From Clostridia bacterium (GTDB lineage: Bacteria; UBA6262; WVXT01; JAUXBS01): 13,842 bases of DNA. Below are positions 2,990 to 13,842 of this stretch, piece after piece. The notes below the pieces were generated by a model. It was not told the DNA's origin. It did no database searches and worked only from the letters and a program-made list of their open reading frames with translations. Position 1 is the stretch's first letter. Each line of letters opens with the position of its first letter. The stretch spans positions 1-13,842 of the forward strand of contig JAUXDE010000041.1 of the NCBI GenBank assembly GCA_030618495.1. Direction: 5' to 3'. Both the position numbers and the translations under genes were made by a program.

Positions 2990-3460
2990 ATGCCTAAAAA
3001 AAAGAGTAAGAAGAAAGATCCTGAACGGAGAGTGCATTTCAGGTTTCCTACAATCACAATAGTAAAAGAAGTTGTCATTGCGGTGGCTCATCCGAAATCG
3101 AAGAATAAGAATGTCATGCCTGCAATAATGTACAATTTAAGCGCCGGGGGAATAGCTATTGTAACATTCGACAAGGTTCCCGTGAATTCAATGATCACCC
3201 TTAATCTTGACCTCGGCAGTGTAAACCTGGAAAATATTACCGGAAAAGTAGTGCGCGTTGAGGGGAAAAACGTAACTTATCTTATTGCAATTGATTTCTA
3301 TAATCTTCCCCAGCAACTAAAGAAAAAAATAAAGAAAATAGCGGATGATGCCGATATTTGTGAGACAAACATTTTGCTGGGTGAAAAACATGTTTGTACA
3401 AAGAAGTGTAGTTATTACGATTTATGCATAAATCCGATGAAAAAGAAGGCCAGGCGATAA
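2990..3460 (+). CDS. PilZ-domain protein with C-terminal Cys cluster
   Basis: This 156-residue protein is a predicted cytoplasmic c-di-GMP receptor. After a very basic N-terminus (Lys/Arg in residues 3-14), it has both halves of the PilZ ligand signature: RxxxR as RVHFR (14-18), and (D/N)xSxxG as NLSAGG (49-54). Predicted beta-strands follow to about residue 102. C-terminal to the PilZ barrel is a Lys-rich helix and then four cysteines, C124, C136, C140 and C146, with spacing C-x11-C-x3-C-x5-C. This could bind zinc or an Fe-S cluster, but that is inference. The gene has the strongest ribosome site in the window (AGGAGGT, 2976-2982, 7 nt before ATG), which suggests high translation. It sits between mutS and mutL, 25 bp after the mutS stop. 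The output is unknown: PilZ proteins act in motility, adhesion, polysaccharide synthesis or gene control. Confidence 0.85.
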   Translation: MPKKKSKKKDPERRVHFRFPTITIVKEVVIAVAHPKSKNKNVMPAIMYNLSAGGIAIVTFDKVPVNSMITLNLDLGSVNLENITGKVVRVEGKNVTYLIAIDFYNLPQQLKKKIKKIADDADICETNILLGEKHVCTKKCSYYDLCINPMKKKARR

Positions 3461-9084: not shown

Positions 9085-9372
9085 ATGAATAAGAACGATA
9101 TAATTGATAAAGTTTCGCGTGTGACCTGCGCCAAGAAAGAGGCGGCTGATGCCGTTAATGAATTCATTTCAGTCATCAAGCAGGCTCTCGCAAACAACAA
9201 AAGAGTAACGATTTCCGGTTTTGGGTCTTTTGTTGTAAGGAACAGGAAAGCGCGCAAAGGGGTGAATCCCCGCACGGGCAAGCAAATCCATATCAAGGAA
9301 AAAGCTACAATAAAATTCAAGTCGGCAAAAAACATACTGGCTGATAAGAATAAAATTCATGAATACGATTAA
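9085..9372 (+). CDS. HU/IHF-family DNA-bending protein
   Basis: This is a 95-residue histone-like protein. The N-terminal helical dimerisation part (1-40) is followed by the GFGSF turn (45-49) and the DNA-embracing arm RNRKARKGVNPRTGKQI (52-68), which contains the conserved Arg-Asn-Pro tip with Pro62 that intercalates in DNA. The C-terminal strand and helix follow, with about 5 extra polar residues at the end. An HU and an IHF subunit cannot be separated with certainty from sequence alone. The AGGA at 9077-9080, overlapping the gpsA stop, is the likely ribosome site. The end overlaps the MerR gene by 14 bp. An IHF/HU gene followed by a MerR-type gene is a recurrent bacterial pair. Confidence 0.93.
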   Translation: MNKNDIIDKVSRVTCAKKEAADAVNEFISVIKQALANNKRVTISGFGSFVVRNRKARKGVNPRTGKQIHIKEKATIKFKSAKNILADKNKIHEYD

Positions 9373-9715
9373 TATACCTGACAAGAAATATTTCACGATC
9401 GGCGAAGTTTCCAGGTTAACCGGCATTAAGCCTTTCGTATTAAGGTACTGGGAATCTGAATTCAAGTTGCTAAGGCCCGTAAGAAGAGAGAGCGGGCAAA
9501 GAAGGTACCTGCATAAGGATATTGAATTGATTGCTACGATAAAATCCCTGCTTTATGAACGCAGGTTCAGTATAGCCGGGGCAAAAATAAAATTGAAGGA
9601 ACATAACAAAAAAATAGATAAGCAATCGGAATTGTTTGAAAAAGACAGCGCGGCGATCTCACTGATAAAAGAGATAAAAAAGGAAATCACGGGAATACTG
9701 AAAACGCTTGAGTAA
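9359..9715 (+). CDS. MerR-family transcriptional regulator
   Basis: This 118-residue protein has an N-terminal winged-helix MerR DNA-binding domain: YFTIGEVSRLTGIKPFVLRY (11-30) forms the helix-turn-helix, and GQRRYLHKDIELI (46-58) forms the wing and the following helix. Helix SIAGAKIKL (71-79) and a lysine-rich coiled-coil (about 80-118) complete it. There is no cysteine-based metal site and no large effector domain, so the ligand, if any, is unknown. It overlaps the upstream HU/IHF-type gene by 14 bp and has no ribosome site of its own, so translation is probably coupled. It is the last gene of the housekeeping run, and the sparse repeat-rich region begins right after it. Confidence 0.9.
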   Translation: MNTINIPDKKYFTIGEVSRLTGIKPFVLRYWESEFKLLRPVRRESGQRRYLHKDIELIATIKSLLYERRFSIAGAKIKLKEHNKKIDKQSELFEKDSAAISLIKEIKKEITGILKTLE

Positions 9716-9937
9716 TCATTCCCGGGACATGGCCCGGCTGGACGGCGCTTAAGAGCCTGAAATATAACAAGATACTTGAATTCCAATGATGAACTCCCAC
9801 CGACAATAAATCCATTCCGTACTTTCCCATGGTTTCCCGGACTTTTAGCAGCGTTTGGTCAATAAATGGTCAATATTTTGTAGTATTGTATTGATCGGGG
9901 GGGGGATGTCTATTCTAAATATGATTTTAAAATCGTC
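9716..9937. other. Intergenic region between merR and the toxin-antitoxin genes
   Basis: No credible gene is visible on either strand. It contains a short GC-rich hairpin (CCGGG / CCCGG, 9722-9737) after the merR stop without a following T run, repeat copy A, and a run of nine G at 9897-9905. It marks the boundary between the compact operon and the accessory region. Confidence 0.6.
9787..9880 (+). repeat. Dispersed repeat, copy A (partial)
   Basis: The segment shares the right part of copies B and C: the ACTCCCACCGACAATAAA-type left block, a decamer array, TAGCAG, and the terminal double TGGTCAATA. It holds three decamers (9816-9845, each ending TTT) and the 11-bp tandem pair at 9856-9877. 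It lacks the 49-bp left block that is identical in B and C. It is in the same orientation as the other copies. Confidence 0.85.
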
Positions 9938-9966
9938 TTGACATATTTGAATAGATAATGTATAAT
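9938..9966 (+). promoter_or_regulatory. Consensus sigma-70 promoter of the brnT-type operon
   Basis: TTGACA (9938-9943), a 17-bp spacer, and TATAAT (9961-9966) are a perfect match to the housekeeping promoter. Transcription should begin near 9973, leaving a leader of about 10 nt before ATG 9984 and no room for a ribosome site. Confidence 0.85.
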
Positions 9967-9978
9967 ATGGTATATACA
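9959..9978. promoter_or_regulatory. Candidate autoregulatory operator over the -10 box
   Basis: The inverted repeat TGTATA-N8-TATACA overlaps the -10 box and the predicted transcription start. Ribbon-helix-helix antitoxins of BrnA/CopG type are known to repress their own operons at such palindromes. Assigning this one as the operator is inference. Confidence 0.5.
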
Positions 9979-9983
9979 ATAAT

Positions 9984-10292
9984 ATGAACATAAAACAACT
10001 CGATACTGAAGATTTTGAATGGGACAAACATAATACAGAAAAAAACCTTAAAAAACATAACGTTACTTCAAATGAATGTGAAGAAGCATTTTTCAATGAA
10101 GCATTAATTGCTTTAGATACAAAACATTCCTATAATGAAGAAAGATATTTTATAATGGGAATCACTAATGCAGGAAGGTTGTTGTTTGTGGTTTATACTA
10201 TTCGCAGAAATAAAGTGAGAGTAATATCCGTAAGGGATATGAATAAGAAGGAAAGGAAAATATACCATGAAAAAACTAAAAAAGATACCTAA
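9984..10292 (+). CDS. brnT: BrnT-family toxin of a type II toxin-antitoxin pair
   Basis: This 102-residue protein belongs to the BrnT (DUF497) family, RelE-fold ribonucleases that block translation. Family landmarks are FEWD (11-14), N21 with KH (24-25), H48, EERYFIMG (52-59), the LLFVVYT strand (66-72) and VRVISVRD (78-85, in place of the commoner IISAR), followed by KKERKIYHE (88-96) with Glu90, Arg91 and Tyr94. The acidic, basic and tyrosine residues typical of the family are in place, so it may be active. It is preceded by a perfect sigma-70 promoter with a palindrome over the -10 box, and no Shine-Dalgarno sequence is seen. It overlaps the antitoxin gene by 26 bp. Codons are more A/T-rich than in the housekeeping block, consistent with horizontal acquisition. 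Confidence 0.9.
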   Translation: MNIKQLDTEDFEWDKHNTEKNLKKHNVTSNECEEAFFNEALIALDTKHSYNEERYFIMGITNAGRLLFVVYTIRRNKVRVISVRDMNKKERKIYHEKTKKDT

Positions 10293-10557
10293 TTTCAAAA
10301 ATGAAGATGAAGAGTTTGAATTCTGGTCTACTCATGATTCAACTGAATATATTAATTGGAAAAAATCTGGTAGGGTTATTTTCCCCAATCTGAAACCCAC
10401 TACAAAATCAATACCAATAAGGTTCCCCCTTTATATGATTGAGGAATTGAAATATCTTGCGAACAGGAATAATGTCCCTTACCAGTCACTTATCAAGGTA
10501 TACCTGGACGAACGTTTAAGGCAGGAATTGAATAAGAAGAAAAAGAAAGTATCCTAA
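10267..10557 (+). CDS. CopG/BrnA-type antitoxin
   Basis: This 96-residue protein is the partner of the BrnT-type toxin, whose gene it overlaps by 26 bp. The N-terminal segment IPNFKNEDEEFEFWSTHD (7-24) is the usual toxin-facing motif of the CopG_antitoxin/BrnA group (IP-x-F-x-x-E-x-x-x-x-FW-x-x-x-D). It is followed by the ribbon-helix-helix: strand TKSIPIRFP (46-54), helix 1 (55-68), the NNVPYQSLIK turn and helix 2 (68-84). The C-terminus is a lysine-rich tail. As a dimer it should bind DNA, probably the palindrome at 9959-9978, and neutralise the toxin. The ribosome site AAGGAAA lies within the end of the toxin gene. The toxin-first gene order matches BrnT/BrnA loci and is reversed relative to many other toxin-antitoxin pairs. 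Confidence 0.88.
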   Translation: MKKLKKIPNFKNEDEEFEFWSTHDSTEYINWKKSGRVIFPNLKPTTKSIPIRFPLYMIEELKYLANRNNVPYQSLIKVYLDERLRQELNKKKKKVS

Positions 10558-10637
10558 AAGTGTGATAAATATTCTGTGTATACGGTCGTTCTCACTTCAA
10601 TCTCAATGAGAATCACTACTTGAAATCTTCATTCATA

Positions 10638-10666
10638 TTGATTTTATTCCCGCATATTGTTATAAT
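10638..10666 (+). promoter_or_regulatory. Possible sigma-70 promoter before repeat copy B
   Basis: TTGATT (10638-10643), a 17-bp spacer and TATAAT (10661-10666) match the promoter consensus well. Transcription would start near 10673 and run into a strong GGAGGGG site and repeat copy B. In AT-rich DNA such matches can be accidental. Confidence 0.45.
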
Positions 10667-10696
10667 TGCAAATTCATTGGAGGGGAAGGTGACATC

Positions 10697-10732
10697 GTGA
10701 ACGAAGTGAACGAGAAATGTCCGTGGTGCTAA
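10697..10732 (+). CDS. Possible 11-residue peptide ending CPWC
   Basis: GTG at 10697 opens an 11-codon frame reading (M)NEVNEKCPWC, then TAA. A GGAGGGG ribosome-site-like sequence (10679-10685) lies 11 nt upstream and a promoter-like pair lies before that. The stop overlaps ATG 10732, which opens a 6-codon frame (MVSHRS) inside repeat copy B. The Cys-Pro-Trp-Cys ending resembles a zinc-ribbon or redox motif. It could be a degraded gene start, a leader peptide or chance. Confidence is low. Confidence 0.2.
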   Translation: MNEVNEKCPWC

Positions 10733-10847
10733 TGGTAAGTCACCGGTCTTGAAAGGCGATGAGTATATCGTCGTGAAGCAATCCCACCGACAATAAAACT
10801 ATTCCGTACTTTCAGCAGTGTTTGGTCAATAAATGGTCAATATTTTG
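10732..10847 (+). repeat. Dispersed repeat, copy B
   Basis: The first 49 bp (10732-10780) are identical to 12260-12308 in copy C. They contain the hairpin GGCGAT / ATCGTC with a 6-nt loop (10755-10772, one G-U pair in RNA). The rest aligns with A and C, with only one decamer (10803-10812) before CAGCAG and the 11-bp tandem pair TGGTCAATA-NN (10823-10844). The GTGAACGAAGTGAACGAG stretch at 10697-10714, just to its left, and GAAGCAATCCC resemble short dispersed elements common in environmental bacteria. Confidence 0.88.
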
Positions 10848-10886
10848 AAATCCTTAAGACACTCATTGTTTTTTGCTATATCTGGA

Positions 10887-10964
10887 ATAAGTGATAATAA
10901 GAGAATGTCATATTATCATATATGGTCATAAGTAAAAATAAAGAAATTCCTTATTATCACTTAT
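10887..10964. repeat. 15-bp perfect inverted repeat
   Basis: ATAAGTGATAATAAG (10887-10901) is exactly complementary to 10950-10964, with 48 bp between the arms. After a 1-nt bulge, GAAT / ATTC (10903-10906 / 10946-10949) adds 4 pairs. A competing smaller hairpin uses GATAATA (10892-10898) with TATTATC (10911-10917). It lies about 150 bp upstream of the ATPase gene. Confidence 0.75.
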
Positions 10965-11077
10965 AATTGATATATAAGCTAATAAATATAAATCTTTCTT
11001 CAAAATTCTATTGACAAATTTATAATATGAGGAGTTTCCCCGTCCCTTCCTGTTCCCGGAAATATCATACTATACGC

Positions 11078-11106
11078 TTGACATTTCATGGGTAATAATA
11101 TACAAT
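11078..11106 (+). promoter_or_regulatory. Sigma-70 promoter of the ATPase gene (leaderless)
   Basis: TTGACA (11078-11083), a 17-bp spacer and TACAAT (11101-11106) are near-consensus. The start codon ATG 11114 is only 7 nt after the -10 box, exactly where transcription should begin, so the mRNA is predicted to be leaderless. A 7-bp inverted repeat, TACTAAT / ATTAGTA (11106-11132), spans the start. Confidence 0.8.
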
Positions 11107-11113
11107 ACTAATC

Positions 11114-12280
11114 ATGAGAACAATTATTAGTAGAAACCATGACATTAAAAAAATCGAGGAATTATTAAAAGTGTTTCCGGTAACAGCTATTTTTGGGCCA
11201 CGGCAATCGGGCAAGACATTTCTGGCAAAACAAATAAAATATAATCATTATTTTGATCTGGAGAATCCAAGGGATATTGCTCTTCTTGAAAATCCACAAC
11301 TTGCATTGGAAGATTTGACTGGTTTGATAGTTATTGACGAAATACAACGCCTGCCGGATTTGTTTTCAGTTATGCGTTATCTTGTGGATAATAATCAAAA
11401 GCAGAGGTATCTTATTCTGGGTAGTGCTTCAGGAGTTTTGATAAAGCAAAGTTCAGAGTCATTAGCAGGGAGGATAGGGTATTATTATCTTGGAGGATTT
11501 TCTATCCCGGATGCCGGAGGTTCAAATATTAAAAAATTGTGGTTGAGGGGTGGGTTTCCACGCTCATTCACCGCGCGTAATAACAAAGAAAGTTTTTTGT
11601 GGCTTTCAAATTATATCAGCACGTTCCTTGAAAGAGATATTCCACAATTAGGTATAACCATACCTTCCGGCACGCTTAGAAAATTTTGGATAATGTTAAG
11701 CCATTATCATGGAACCATCCTTAATTATTCAGAGATTGCAAGGTCCTTTGGTGTTTCAGATATGACTGTAAGGAAGTATATTGATATACTTGAAAAGACA
11801 TTTATGGTAAGAATACTCCAGCCATGGTATGTAAATATAGGTAAACGGCTGGTGAAGAGTCCTAAAATATATCTAACTGATTCGGGTGTTTTTCATTCGC
11901 TCGTGTCACTGGAGGATATTAACCAGTTGATTGTTCATAATAAAGTGGGAGCTTCCTGGGAAGGGTTTGCGCTTGAATGTGTTGCGAAGTCTCTTCAAAA
12001 GAAAAAGGAAGAATTATTTTTCTGGAATACTCACACTGGCGCCGAACTGGACCTGTTTTGGCAGGATAAAGGACAGAACTGGGGAGTTGAGTTTAAATAT
12101 TCAGATGCTCCAAGAATAACACGTTCAATGCATTCGGCGATTAATGACTTGAAACTTTCTCATCTCTGGGTTATTTATCCGGGGAAACAAATGTATAAGC
12201 TTAATGCCAGGATTACCGTAATACCTCTAAATACAATAAAAGATATTTGGGACTATGCGATGGTAAGTCACCGGTCTTGA
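11114..12280 (+). CDS. AAA ATPase with DUF4143 C-terminal domain
   Basis: This 388-residue member of the AAA_14/DUF4143 family is a very widespread, often transferred group of unknown cellular role. The N-terminal P-loop domain has Walker A GPRQSGKT (28-35), Walker B LIVIDEIQ (71-78), the sensor-like strand LILGSAS (100-106), SLAGR (116-120) and the family motif LWLRGGFPRS (142-151). A linker with YISTFLERDIPQLG (167-180) and a winged-helix-like segment (about 186-230) follow. The DUF4143 part resembles a PD-(D/E)xK nuclease fold: Glu283 or Glu288, Asp313 in GAELDLFW and E326-x-K328 in GVEFKYS. The last six residues (MVSHRS) and the stop are encoded by repeat copy C, so the native C-terminus was probably slightly different. 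It is expressed from its own promoter with a predicted leaderless start and lies between repeat copies B and C. Confidence 0.88.
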   Translation: MRTIISRNHDIKKIEELLKVFPVTAIFGPRQSGKTFLAKQIKYNHYFDLENPRDIALLENPQLALEDLTGLIVIDEIQRLPDLFSVMRYLVDNNQKQRYLILGSASGVLIKQSSESLAGRIGYYYLGGFSIPDAGGSNIKKLWLRGGFPRSFTARNNKESFLWLSNYISTFLERDIPQLGITIPSGTLRKFWIMLSHYHGTILNYSEIARSFGVSDMTVRKYIDILEKTFMVRILQPWYVNIGKRLVKSPKIYLTDSGVFHSLVSLEDINQLIVHNKVGASWEGFALECVAKSLQKKKEELFFWNTHTGAELDLFWQDKGQNWGVEFKYSDAPRITRSMHSAINDLKLSHLWVIYPGKQMYKLNARITVIPLNTIKDIWDYAMVSHRS

Positions 12281-12403
12281 AAGGCGATGAGTATATCGTC
12301 GTGAAGCACTCCCGCCGACAATAAAACTATTCCATACTTTCAGGTACTTTCACGTATTTTCATGTACTTTTAGCAGCACTTGGTCAATAAATGGTCAATA
12401 TTT
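12260..12403 (+). repeat. Dispersed repeat, copy C
   Basis: The first 49 bp are identical to copy B and overlap the 3' end of the ATPase gene. The hairpin GGCGAT / ATCGTC is at 12283-12300. Four decamers with consensus CANGTACTTT occupy 12331-12370, followed by TAGCAG and the 11-bp tandem pair (12381-12402). It has the same orientation as A and B. Confidence 0.9.
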
Positions 12404-12490: not shown

Positions 12491-12519
12491 TGGACAAATA
12501 AAGGAAAATAGGGTATAAT
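12491..12519 (+). promoter_or_regulatory. Sigma-70 promoter of the membrane protein gene
   Basis: TGGACA (12491-12496), a 17-bp spacer and TATAAT (12514-12519) differ from consensus at one base. The predicted start of transcription, near 12526, coincides with the ATG of a 12-codon upstream ORF (12528). Confidence 0.75.
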
Positions 12520-12569: not shown

Positions 12570-13842
12570 ATGAGTAAATTAATTCTGGTATTATTCTTTT
12601 TATCCGGTGCATGCGGCCTGATCCATGAAGTTGTCTGGACCCGTTTGCTCAGCCATGTCTTTGGCACTACGGTATATGCAGTAAGTACCGTTCTTGCTGC
12701 ATACATGGCAGGTCTTGCACTCGGTTCCTATCTTTTTGGGAAAATTATAGATAAATACGACAGGCCTTTGAAGATGTTCGGGATTCTTGAAGCGGGTATA
12801 GGAATAACTGCCTTGCTGGTCCCCTATTTCTTTAATGTATTAGGGAACATATATGTTGTTTTTCATTCAGTAAATAATAATTATGTTTTCTCAATAATTA
12901 GGTTTTTAACATCATTCCTTGTCCTTATGATTCCTACAACACTGATGGGGGGAACGTTACCTGTTTTAAGTAAGTATTTTATAAAGAAGTCTAACAGGCT
13001 TGCTTCAAATATGGGCACGATTTACAGTGTAAATACTTTTGGAGCTATGGCAGGCAGTTTAATTGCTGGTTTTATACTAATAGAAAACATCGGTATTGGC
13101 AACACAATTATTCTTGCAAGCGTAACAAACCTTATTATAGCGGGTATAGTTCTAAGGGTAAAAGTCAAGGATAAGGTTCCTGCCATACAGAATTATAAGC
13201 CAGAACAAGTAATATCTGAAAAGTATCCTCGGTGGATTGGAAATATAATCCTTTTTGTATTTGCTATTTCGGGATTCTGTGCGCTTGCCTATGAAGTATT
13301 ATGGTCAAGAATTCTGGTTTATGCTCTGCGTAGTTTAACCTATTCCTTTACACTTATGCTTTCCACGGTTTTGTTAGGTATTGCACTCGGCAGTTACCTT
13401 TTTTCAAAAATTATTGATAGGAATAAGCATCTGCTTACAACCCTTGGTTTGCTCGAGGCAATGATAGGCCTTGTTGTTTTTTTGGGAATGCTCGGATTTG
13501 GCAGTGTTAGTAAGTTCTGCTTCTATTCAGGGGATAACTGGCTAACCTGGATAATTATCAGGTTTATTGCCTGTTCTTTAATAATGCTATTACCTGCAAT
13601 GCTTATGGGCGGGGCTTTCCCGCTGGTAGGTAAAATATATGTAAACAGTATAAAGAAAATAGGCAAATCAACTGCAAACATGTATTCTGTAAATACCGTT
13701 GGAGCAATAATCGGTTCACTTGTAGCAGGTTTTATAATGATTCCCCTTTTTGGTGTCCAGAAAAGCATTTTCATTTTTGGTCTTGTGAATATTATTGGCG
13801 GCTTAGTTGTAATAATGCTTGATAATTCTACAGGCAAGAAGT
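12570..13842 (+). CDS. Spermidine-synthase-like polytopic membrane protein (3' end outside window)
   Basis: This frame runs without a stop from ATG 12570 to the window edge, giving 424 visible residues. It is built from two homologous halves about 220 residues apart: SGACGLIHEVVWTR (12-25) versus SGFCALAYEVLWSR (234-247), IPTTLMGGTLPVLSK (121-135) versus LPAMLMGGAFPLVGK (341-355), and IYSVNTFGAMAGSLIAGF (151-168) versus MYSVNTVGAIIGSLVAGF (371-388). Each half has about six or seven hydrophobic helices. These motifs are characteristic of the membrane part of the 'fused MFS/spermidine synthase' family, in which a spermidine-synthase-like Rossmann domain may follow. That domain is not within the visible part, so enzymatic activity cannot be claimed. 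The substrate is unknown. It has its own promoter and lies just beyond repeat copy C. Confidence 0.85.
   Translation, partial: MSKLILVLFFLSGACGLIHEVVWTRLLSHVFGTTVYAVSTVLAAYMAGLALGSYLFGKIIDKYDRPLKMFGILEAGIGITALLVPYFFNVLGNIYVVFHSVNNNYVFSIIRFLTSFLVLMIPTTLMGGTLPVLSKYFIKKSNRLASNMGTIYSVNTFGAMAGSLIAGFILIENIGIGNTIILASVTNLIIAGIVLRVKVKDKVPAIQNYKPEQVISEKYPRWIGNIILFVFAISGFCALAYEVLWSRILVYALRSLTYSFTLMLSTVLLGIALGSYLFSKIIDRNKHLLTTLGLLEAMIGLVVFLGMLGFGSVSKFCFYSGDNWLTWIIIRFIACSLIMLLPAMLMGGAFPLVGKIYVNSIKKIGKSTANMYSVNTVGAIIGSLVAGFIMIPLFGVQKSIFIFGLVNIIGGLVVIMLDNSTGKK

Follow-up and report, generated by a model that had tools for sequence, protein, structure and literature searches.

The DNA stretch analysed here, hereafter the window, is 13,842 nucleotides long and covers a whole contig (JAUXDE010000041.1, or C165) of a Clostridia bacterium whose genome is assembled into 179 contigs totalling 1.69 Mb. 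At the edge of a conserved housekeeping operon, it carries an array in which three direct repeats, termed A, B and C, alternate with small accessory gene modules. With slightly better than even confidence, we read this array as a tandem accretion of tiny elements flanked by attachment (att) sites and devoid of an integrase, akin to the cis-mobilizable elements (CIMEs), with A, B and C being relic attachment sites of a tyrosine recombinase. Each site would comprise, from left to right, a crossover core resembling the 3′ part of a tRNA, a set of 10-bp units, and a pair of 9-bp arm-type sites. Small elements with the same ends and different cargo would have integrated one after another beside the merR gene, giving the order chromosome-attL(A)-element 1-junction(B)-element 2-junction(C)-element 3, in which A would retain the chromosomal left flank and B and C would be junctions between elements. 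Each element would then consist of core, accessory sites and arm sites, followed by its cargo and a left-half end. The first cargo would be the BrnT/BrnA toxin-antitoxin (TA) pair, the second a DUF4143 ATPase, and the third would probably begin with a gene related to the major facilitator superfamily (MFS). Because no integrase is present, the elements would have been either mobilised in trans or, like CIMEs, decayed islands accreted by site-specific recombination.

Anatomy and distribution of the repeat

An original prediction, made from the letters alone, described three direct repeats in one orientation. Self-comparison of the window bears this out, placing copies A (9787..9880), B (10732..10847) and C (12260..12403), like all features given below, on the forward strand, and excludes chance as the source of their likeness. 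The block shared by B and C, predicted to be 49 bp long, exists but is longer, extending over 84 bp at 96% identity (10732-10815 and 12260-12343) before indels set in. Likewise, the repeat is real, but it is a composite of core, units and tail rather than a simple block. The sequence ATTCC(G/A)TACTTTC... is common to all three copies, which also end in an identical 3′ sequence, TTGGTCAATAAATGGTCAATATTT. The homology of A to the other two is restricted to the right part, starting at position 9787 (TGATGAACTCCCACCGACAATAAA); its left flank is unrelated to B and C, the left halves of which are alike. A right half alone in A, and both halves in B and C, is the pattern expected of an attL followed by internal junctions. 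A, with the core, three 10-bp units and the arm-type pair, is therefore proposed to be an attL with a chromosomal left flank, and B and C to be full junctions composed of left half, core, units and arm-type pair.

The leftmost part of the repeat is the core, TGAA..(A/C)TCCC(A/G)CCGACAATAAA. The middle part is made of 10-bp units of the type TACTTTCANG, present in one copy in B, three in A (9820..9849; TACTTTCCCA TGGTTTCCCG GACTTTTAGC) and four in C (12335..12374; TACTTTCAGG TACTTTCACG TATTTTCATG TACTTTTAGC). The units of A were read directly from the sequence and align with units that lie at a tRNA in G004, a genome of the same order. Those of C were delimited by Tandem Repeats Finder, which scored this copy alone (period 10, score 51, at 12335-12370), and by autocorrelation, which peaks within C at lag 10 (24/38). 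The right part is a tail, TTGGTCAATAA-ATGGTCAATA, consisting of two 9-bp sites with a period of 11 bp (TGGTCAATA-AA-TGGTCAATA). This tail is the proposed integrase arm-type pair, located at 9855..9875 in A (TTGGTCAATAAATGGTCAATA) and, by sequence match between the copies, at 10822..10842 in B and 12380..12400 in C. The spacing between the ATTCC of the core and the tail is 41 bp in A, 21 bp in B and 51 bp in C, and it changes only in 10-bp steps, which unit slippage alone would also yield. By analogy with known integration systems, the 10-bp units are plausibly binding sites of a directionality factor or another kind of accessory site.

A, B and C are the only copies of the repeat in the genome: whole-genome BLAST and a 24-bp pattern allowing three mismatches revealed no further copy outside the window contig, and thus no scatter across the genome. 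Searches in 97 other genomes gave only a few partial matches, four of them inside tRNA genes. A 19-bp tail pattern had no copy in 385 other genomes, and a search of 84,980 species genomes gave two matches, both in what looks like coding sequence. Plasmid and phage records held nothing convincing for the repeat. No matching inverted repeats are present at the repeat ends, and the three copies are confined to one locus. An insertion sequence (IS) or a miniature inverted-repeat transposable element is rejected on these grounds, in agreement with the earlier view that the repeat is not an IS.

Tail motif at attachment sites of other genomes

An exact 20-bp search of IMG/VR with the tail TTTGGTCAATAAATGGTCAATA retrieved the viral contig L028 and its near-copy L030. 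There, two exact tails and one 19-bp copy, all within 600 bp, flank a tRNA 3′ half (recognised by eye, with no Rfam match) and adjoin a tyrosine integrase gene (PF00589). A looser pattern retrieved two further contigs, each with the tail in an att setting. L096 encodes an integrase with an Arm-DNA-bind_3 domain and has a variant tail 64 bp beyond the 3′ half of a tRNA (Rfam tRNA, 30.3 bits), while in L097 a variant tail occupies a prophage end beside a tRNA cluster. In G004, 10-bp units and a variant tail (TTTGGTCAAAAAATGGTTAAAA) occur downstream of a decayed tRNA-Thr(CGT). Compared with 1000 shuffles, this stretch scores 42 against A (shuffle maximum 31) and 41 against C (shuffle maximum 36), and its score against B exceeds all but one of 1000 shuffles. 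Repeated sites near a core are what the arm-type sites of a tyrosine integrase look like, and the presence of the same motif or a variant at the integrase-bearing att sites of L028/L030 and L096 suggests that the tail of A, B and C is of this kind. The mobilisation of the repeat, which the original prediction had left unexplained, thereby finds a likely explanation in the core and arm-type sites of a tyrosine-integrase attachment site. The anonymous repeat of the array would gain a concrete and testable identity, that of an att site with phased accessory sites and arm-type sites.

The G004 stretch is located at a contig end (G004:C95; L024:1332-2586), where the decayed tRNA-Thr(CGT), the 10-bp units and the variant tail are followed by an array of A-rich ~30-35-bp repeats and by a serine recombinase gene. 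It is probably the end of a mobile element.

The repeats could also have arisen passively, through the copying of one intergenic repeat by slippage, unequal crossing-over or homologous recombination, with genes gained between the copies and no recombinase involved. Plain duplication would account for the 96% identity of B and C, the changing number of 10-bp units resembles slippage, and the array contains no integrase. Yet the ends are shared though the cargo between them is unrelated, A has only one half in common with the other copies, and the genome holds no copy elsewhere. Moreover, the tail motif and the 10-bp units recur at tRNA or att sites of independent genomes. We regard passive duplication as unlikely, while still granting it some weight.

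The tRNA-like core and the case against attachment sites

The left half and core of B lie in a tRNA-Ser(UGA)-like stretch (10718..10792) identified through in-register BLAST matches to tRNA genes. B and its upstream sequence match, over ~26 nt, the D arm and anticodon loop of tRNA-Ser in three genomes and a tRNA-Gln in a fourth, the four genomes being unrelated and all matches being in register. These alignments, picked after the match was known, beat shuffles.

Several results weigh against the interpretation of A, B and C as former attachment sites, and the tRNA identity of the core is its weakest link. The Rfam tRNA model gives no score to the B stretch, which would therefore be at best a decayed or partial tRNA. 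As for the source of the core among host tRNAs, none of the 31 tRNAs among the matches listed fits better than shuffles, and a tRNA-Ser(UGA) gene is not among them. Neither the window nor the array within it contains a cognate integrase. The assembly lacks the last junction, attR, and since the contig reaches no further than the window, the right end of the array is out of view. In L028, the tail and the tRNA half point in opposite directions. Between the window and the other sites, homology stops right at the tail, with no shared integrase remnant that would prove a common origin. Finally, a third, degenerate tail pattern also matches coding sequence, and a control with the pattern reversed yields about as many matches, so that the motif needs its context and is rejected as a sufficient att marker on its own.

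A tRNA-Pro remnant was also considered at A, where the fit is no better than shuffles, and the window holds no intact tRNA. No known structured RNA, such as a riboswitch or an rRNA, gave an Rfam match above threshold.

Gene modules and genomic setting

Pfam matches confirm the modules that had been predicted between the repeats. The A-B interval contains the first cargo, composed of genes for a BrnT toxin (9984..10292; PF04365, E 2.9e-26) and a BrnA/CopG-type antitoxin (10267..10557; PF12441, E 1.1e-28). The B-C interval contains the second, a gene for a 388-aa AAA_14-DUF4143 ATPase (11114..12280; DUF4143 PF13635, E 3.7e-41; AAA_14 PF13173, E 1.2e-23), which PADLOC lists as the candidate defence protein PDC-S01 (E 1.1e-78) and whose last residues and stop codon are encoded inside copy C. 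Copy C is followed by a gene for a fused MFS/spermidine-synthase-like membrane protein (12570..13842; PF07690, NF037959), the open reading frame of which is still open at the contig end; it is the probable start of a third cargo. The proposal that each module has its own promoter also holds: a perfect sigma-70 consensus (12/12) precedes the TA pair at 9938..9966, and strong sigma-70-like sites (11/12 each) precede the DUF4143 gene at 11078..11106 and the MFS-like gene at 12491..12519. Between A and the contig end there is no integrase, relaxase or transfer gene, and the loss of integration and transfer genes is a CIME trait. The tandem layout, with shared ends and different cargo, likewise matches that of accreted att-flanked elements. 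The G+C content is 0.416 in the operon vs 0.31-0.37 in the array.

The left border of the array is a gene for a MerR-family regulator (9359..9715; Pfam MerR_1), the last of the conserved run mutS-mutL-miaA-hflX-pgsA-gpsA-HU-merR. In three genomes of the same order (G002, G004 and G005), HU-merR is directly followed by tRNA-Pro(GGG), with nothing between, which identifies the array as extra DNA. Beyond this tRNA, G002 carries further genes, tRNA-Pro(CGG), a sigma factor gene and apt. In the genome of the window, the first base of contig C159 is also that of tRNA-Pro(GGG); a conserved membrane-protein gene comes next, then tRNA-Pro(CGG), the sigma factor gene and apt. The array thus most likely fills the interval from merR to tRNA-Pro(GGG), the two contigs not being joined in the assembly. 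In G001, which belongs to the same genus, a different gene follows merR and no tRNA is present there; the closest relative of the DUF4143 protein in G001 (48%) and the closest MFS relative sit on other contigs. That relatives possess the operon edge without the modules, that the repeat has no copy elsewhere in the genome, and that IS and integron signatures are absent, supports the original view that recombination between repeats assembled this modular array beside a housekeeping operon.

Two minor features of the array are separate from the repeat. A run of G at 9898-9907, between A and the TA promoter, is a possible slippage site. To the left of B (10691-10721) lies a palindrome-like sequence, GACATCGTGAACGAAGTGAACGAGAAATGTC, an interspersed motif distinct from A, B and C; its other sites (L013:1438-1474; contigs C6 and C21 of the window's genome, G000) include partial copies in this same genome, with a relative in G001.

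Repeats at other DUF4143 loci

Direct repeats, differing in sequence from locus to locus, flank three of the four DUF4143 loci of the genus, compared with none of the 31 usable controls (E < 0.001). Because the window locus was selected on account of its repeats, 2/3 is the unbiased count. At L119 (G001:C147), the gene is flanked by a 37-bp repeat at 89% identity (578-614 / 2000-2036). At L120 (G000:C118), the repeat is 155 bp long, again at 89% (1189-1343 / 3020-3174), and encodes a small ribbon-helix-helix (RHH)/CopG-like protein. The nearest viral relative (L137:2072-4287) presents a VapBC-like pair and then a DUF4143 gene enclosed by two copies of a 134-bp repeat (93%), and a half-repeat precedes the VapBC-like pair (E 0.003-0.012). 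This is the layout of the window, but the repeat is unrelated and contains GTTAGGC/GTTAGAC; unlike in attC sites, the conserved sequence runs well past these motifs, and attC status is not claimed.

Such repeats raise the question of whether the DUF4143 ATPase-nuclease gene itself inserts, leaving long direct target duplications. The genus count, the 134-bp repeat of L137 and a lone DUF4143 gene on an Emticicia plasmid, set between ara genes, are in line with this. However, copy A bounds the TA pair and not the DUF4143 gene, the size of the repeats varies from 37 to 155 bp, and none of the nine plasmid and eight other viral DUF4143 loci has flanking repeats. Insertion by the DUF4143 gene thus appears quite improbable. 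The data rather hint that DUF4143 genes often move as small cargo between repeats, without one common repeat. A broader proposal is that TA and DUF4143 (PDC-S01) genes move as one-gene cassettes that carry their own promoter, lie between ordinary attachment and arm sites of integrases, and are collected in tandem by integrases acting in trans. Such a cassette system would be distinct from both integrons and Xer modules, and the independent viral contig L137 would have the same layout with a different recombinase. We offer this as a speculation that is rather unlikely to hold.

The Emticicia gene lies on plasmid pEMTOL02 of Emticicia oligotrophica (L155:2232-5691), on the opposite strand between the genes for L-ribulose-5-phosphate 4-epimerase and araA, with gaps of ~40-60 bp to its neighbours, like a single-gene insertion in an operon.

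Relation to known systems

CIMEs are defined as att-flanked segments without integration or transfer genes, and in accretion they are stacked with shared att ends (PMC5704250). The array resembles the CIMEs and tandem islands of the ICESt1 type in its integrase-less segments, tandem order, shared ends and unrelated cargo. It differs in that its cargo spans only 0.85-1.5 kb, that is, one operon or one gene, which is unusual for this kind of element, and in that there is no resident integrative and conjugative element (ICE) or integrative and mobilizable element (IME) and no integrase in the array; here, mobility is inferred. If this interpretation is correct, single-gene defence cargo, such as TA pairs and PDC-S01 ATPases, can stack beside housekeeping operons as minimal integrase-less elements. 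This would provide a route for the build-up of defence genes in uncultured lineages that lack integrons, IS elements or visible islands.

Other systems share some of these traits. Dehalococcoides genomes carry tandem runs of ssrA-bounded islands, 15 of them without an integration module, with short direct repeats of the RNA gene end as borders (PMC3146451). In contrast to the array, these islands are far larger and depend on a serine (CcrB-like) recombinase at ssrA, and neither an arm-type pair nor 10-bp units are mentioned in the passages on them (PMC3146451). The attP of ICEMlSym-R7A contains multiple short arm-type sites for IntS that include TGGT, and its directionality factor RdfS binds as one molecule per 10 bp (PMC11963761). 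Short arm-type sites with TGGT and a 10-bp step are thus common to both, but ICEMlSym-R7A is a full ICE with its own integrase and different site sequences, and the 10-bp units of the array can be likened to RdfS sites only tentatively.

The dif modules of Acinetobacter (PMC13141974, PMC6449649) are also small accessory modules with TA cargo bounded by recombination sites; they differ in being mainly plasmid-borne and in having 28-bp Xer sites, of which none was seen in the array. Integron gene cassettes are similar in that single-gene modules lie between repeats of one orientation, but the array has neither attC core sites nor an adjoining integron integrase, and each of its modules has its own promoter. 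A non-canonical integron-like or Xer (dif-module-like) cassette array would be compatible with the small promoter-bearing modules, the uniform orientation of the repeats, the TA genes, which are typical dif-module cargo (PMC13141974, PMC6449649), and a strong hairpin that B can fold (-21 kcal/mol). However, the left arm of this hairpin is missing from A and C. On inspection by eye, none of the three copies has GTTRRRY/RYYYAAC core sites, as the original prediction had noted, and an integron array is rejected on this basis. Inspection by eye likewise found no dif-like 28-bp XerC/XerD dyad in the copies, no genome-wide dif search being made, and the repeats measure 95-145 bp. The genome has four PF00589 matches, corresponding to two intact 306-aa XerC/D-like proteins and two decayed integrase fragments; none of the four adjoins the array, and the IntI-specific domain was not searched for. 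An array of this type is very improbable.

Integrase remnants and recombinase genes elsewhere

One decayed integrase of the genome of the window (L083:1302-1794, G000:C61) has internal stops and lies ~50 bp from tRNA-Ser(GCT); a pair with an 11-bp period, TGGTGTCCATTTGGTGTCCAT, is found at the 3′ end of this relic. At the right end of contig C169 of the same genome (L086), a toxin-antitoxin-like pair comes before an integrase fragment. The antitoxin 3′ end is repeated where this contig stops, possibly through a collapsed tandem duplication or an assembly break. In G002 (L158:1435-4560, contig C29), three tandem tyrosine recombinase genes with overlapping ends are arranged like a recombinase-in-trio (RIT) element.

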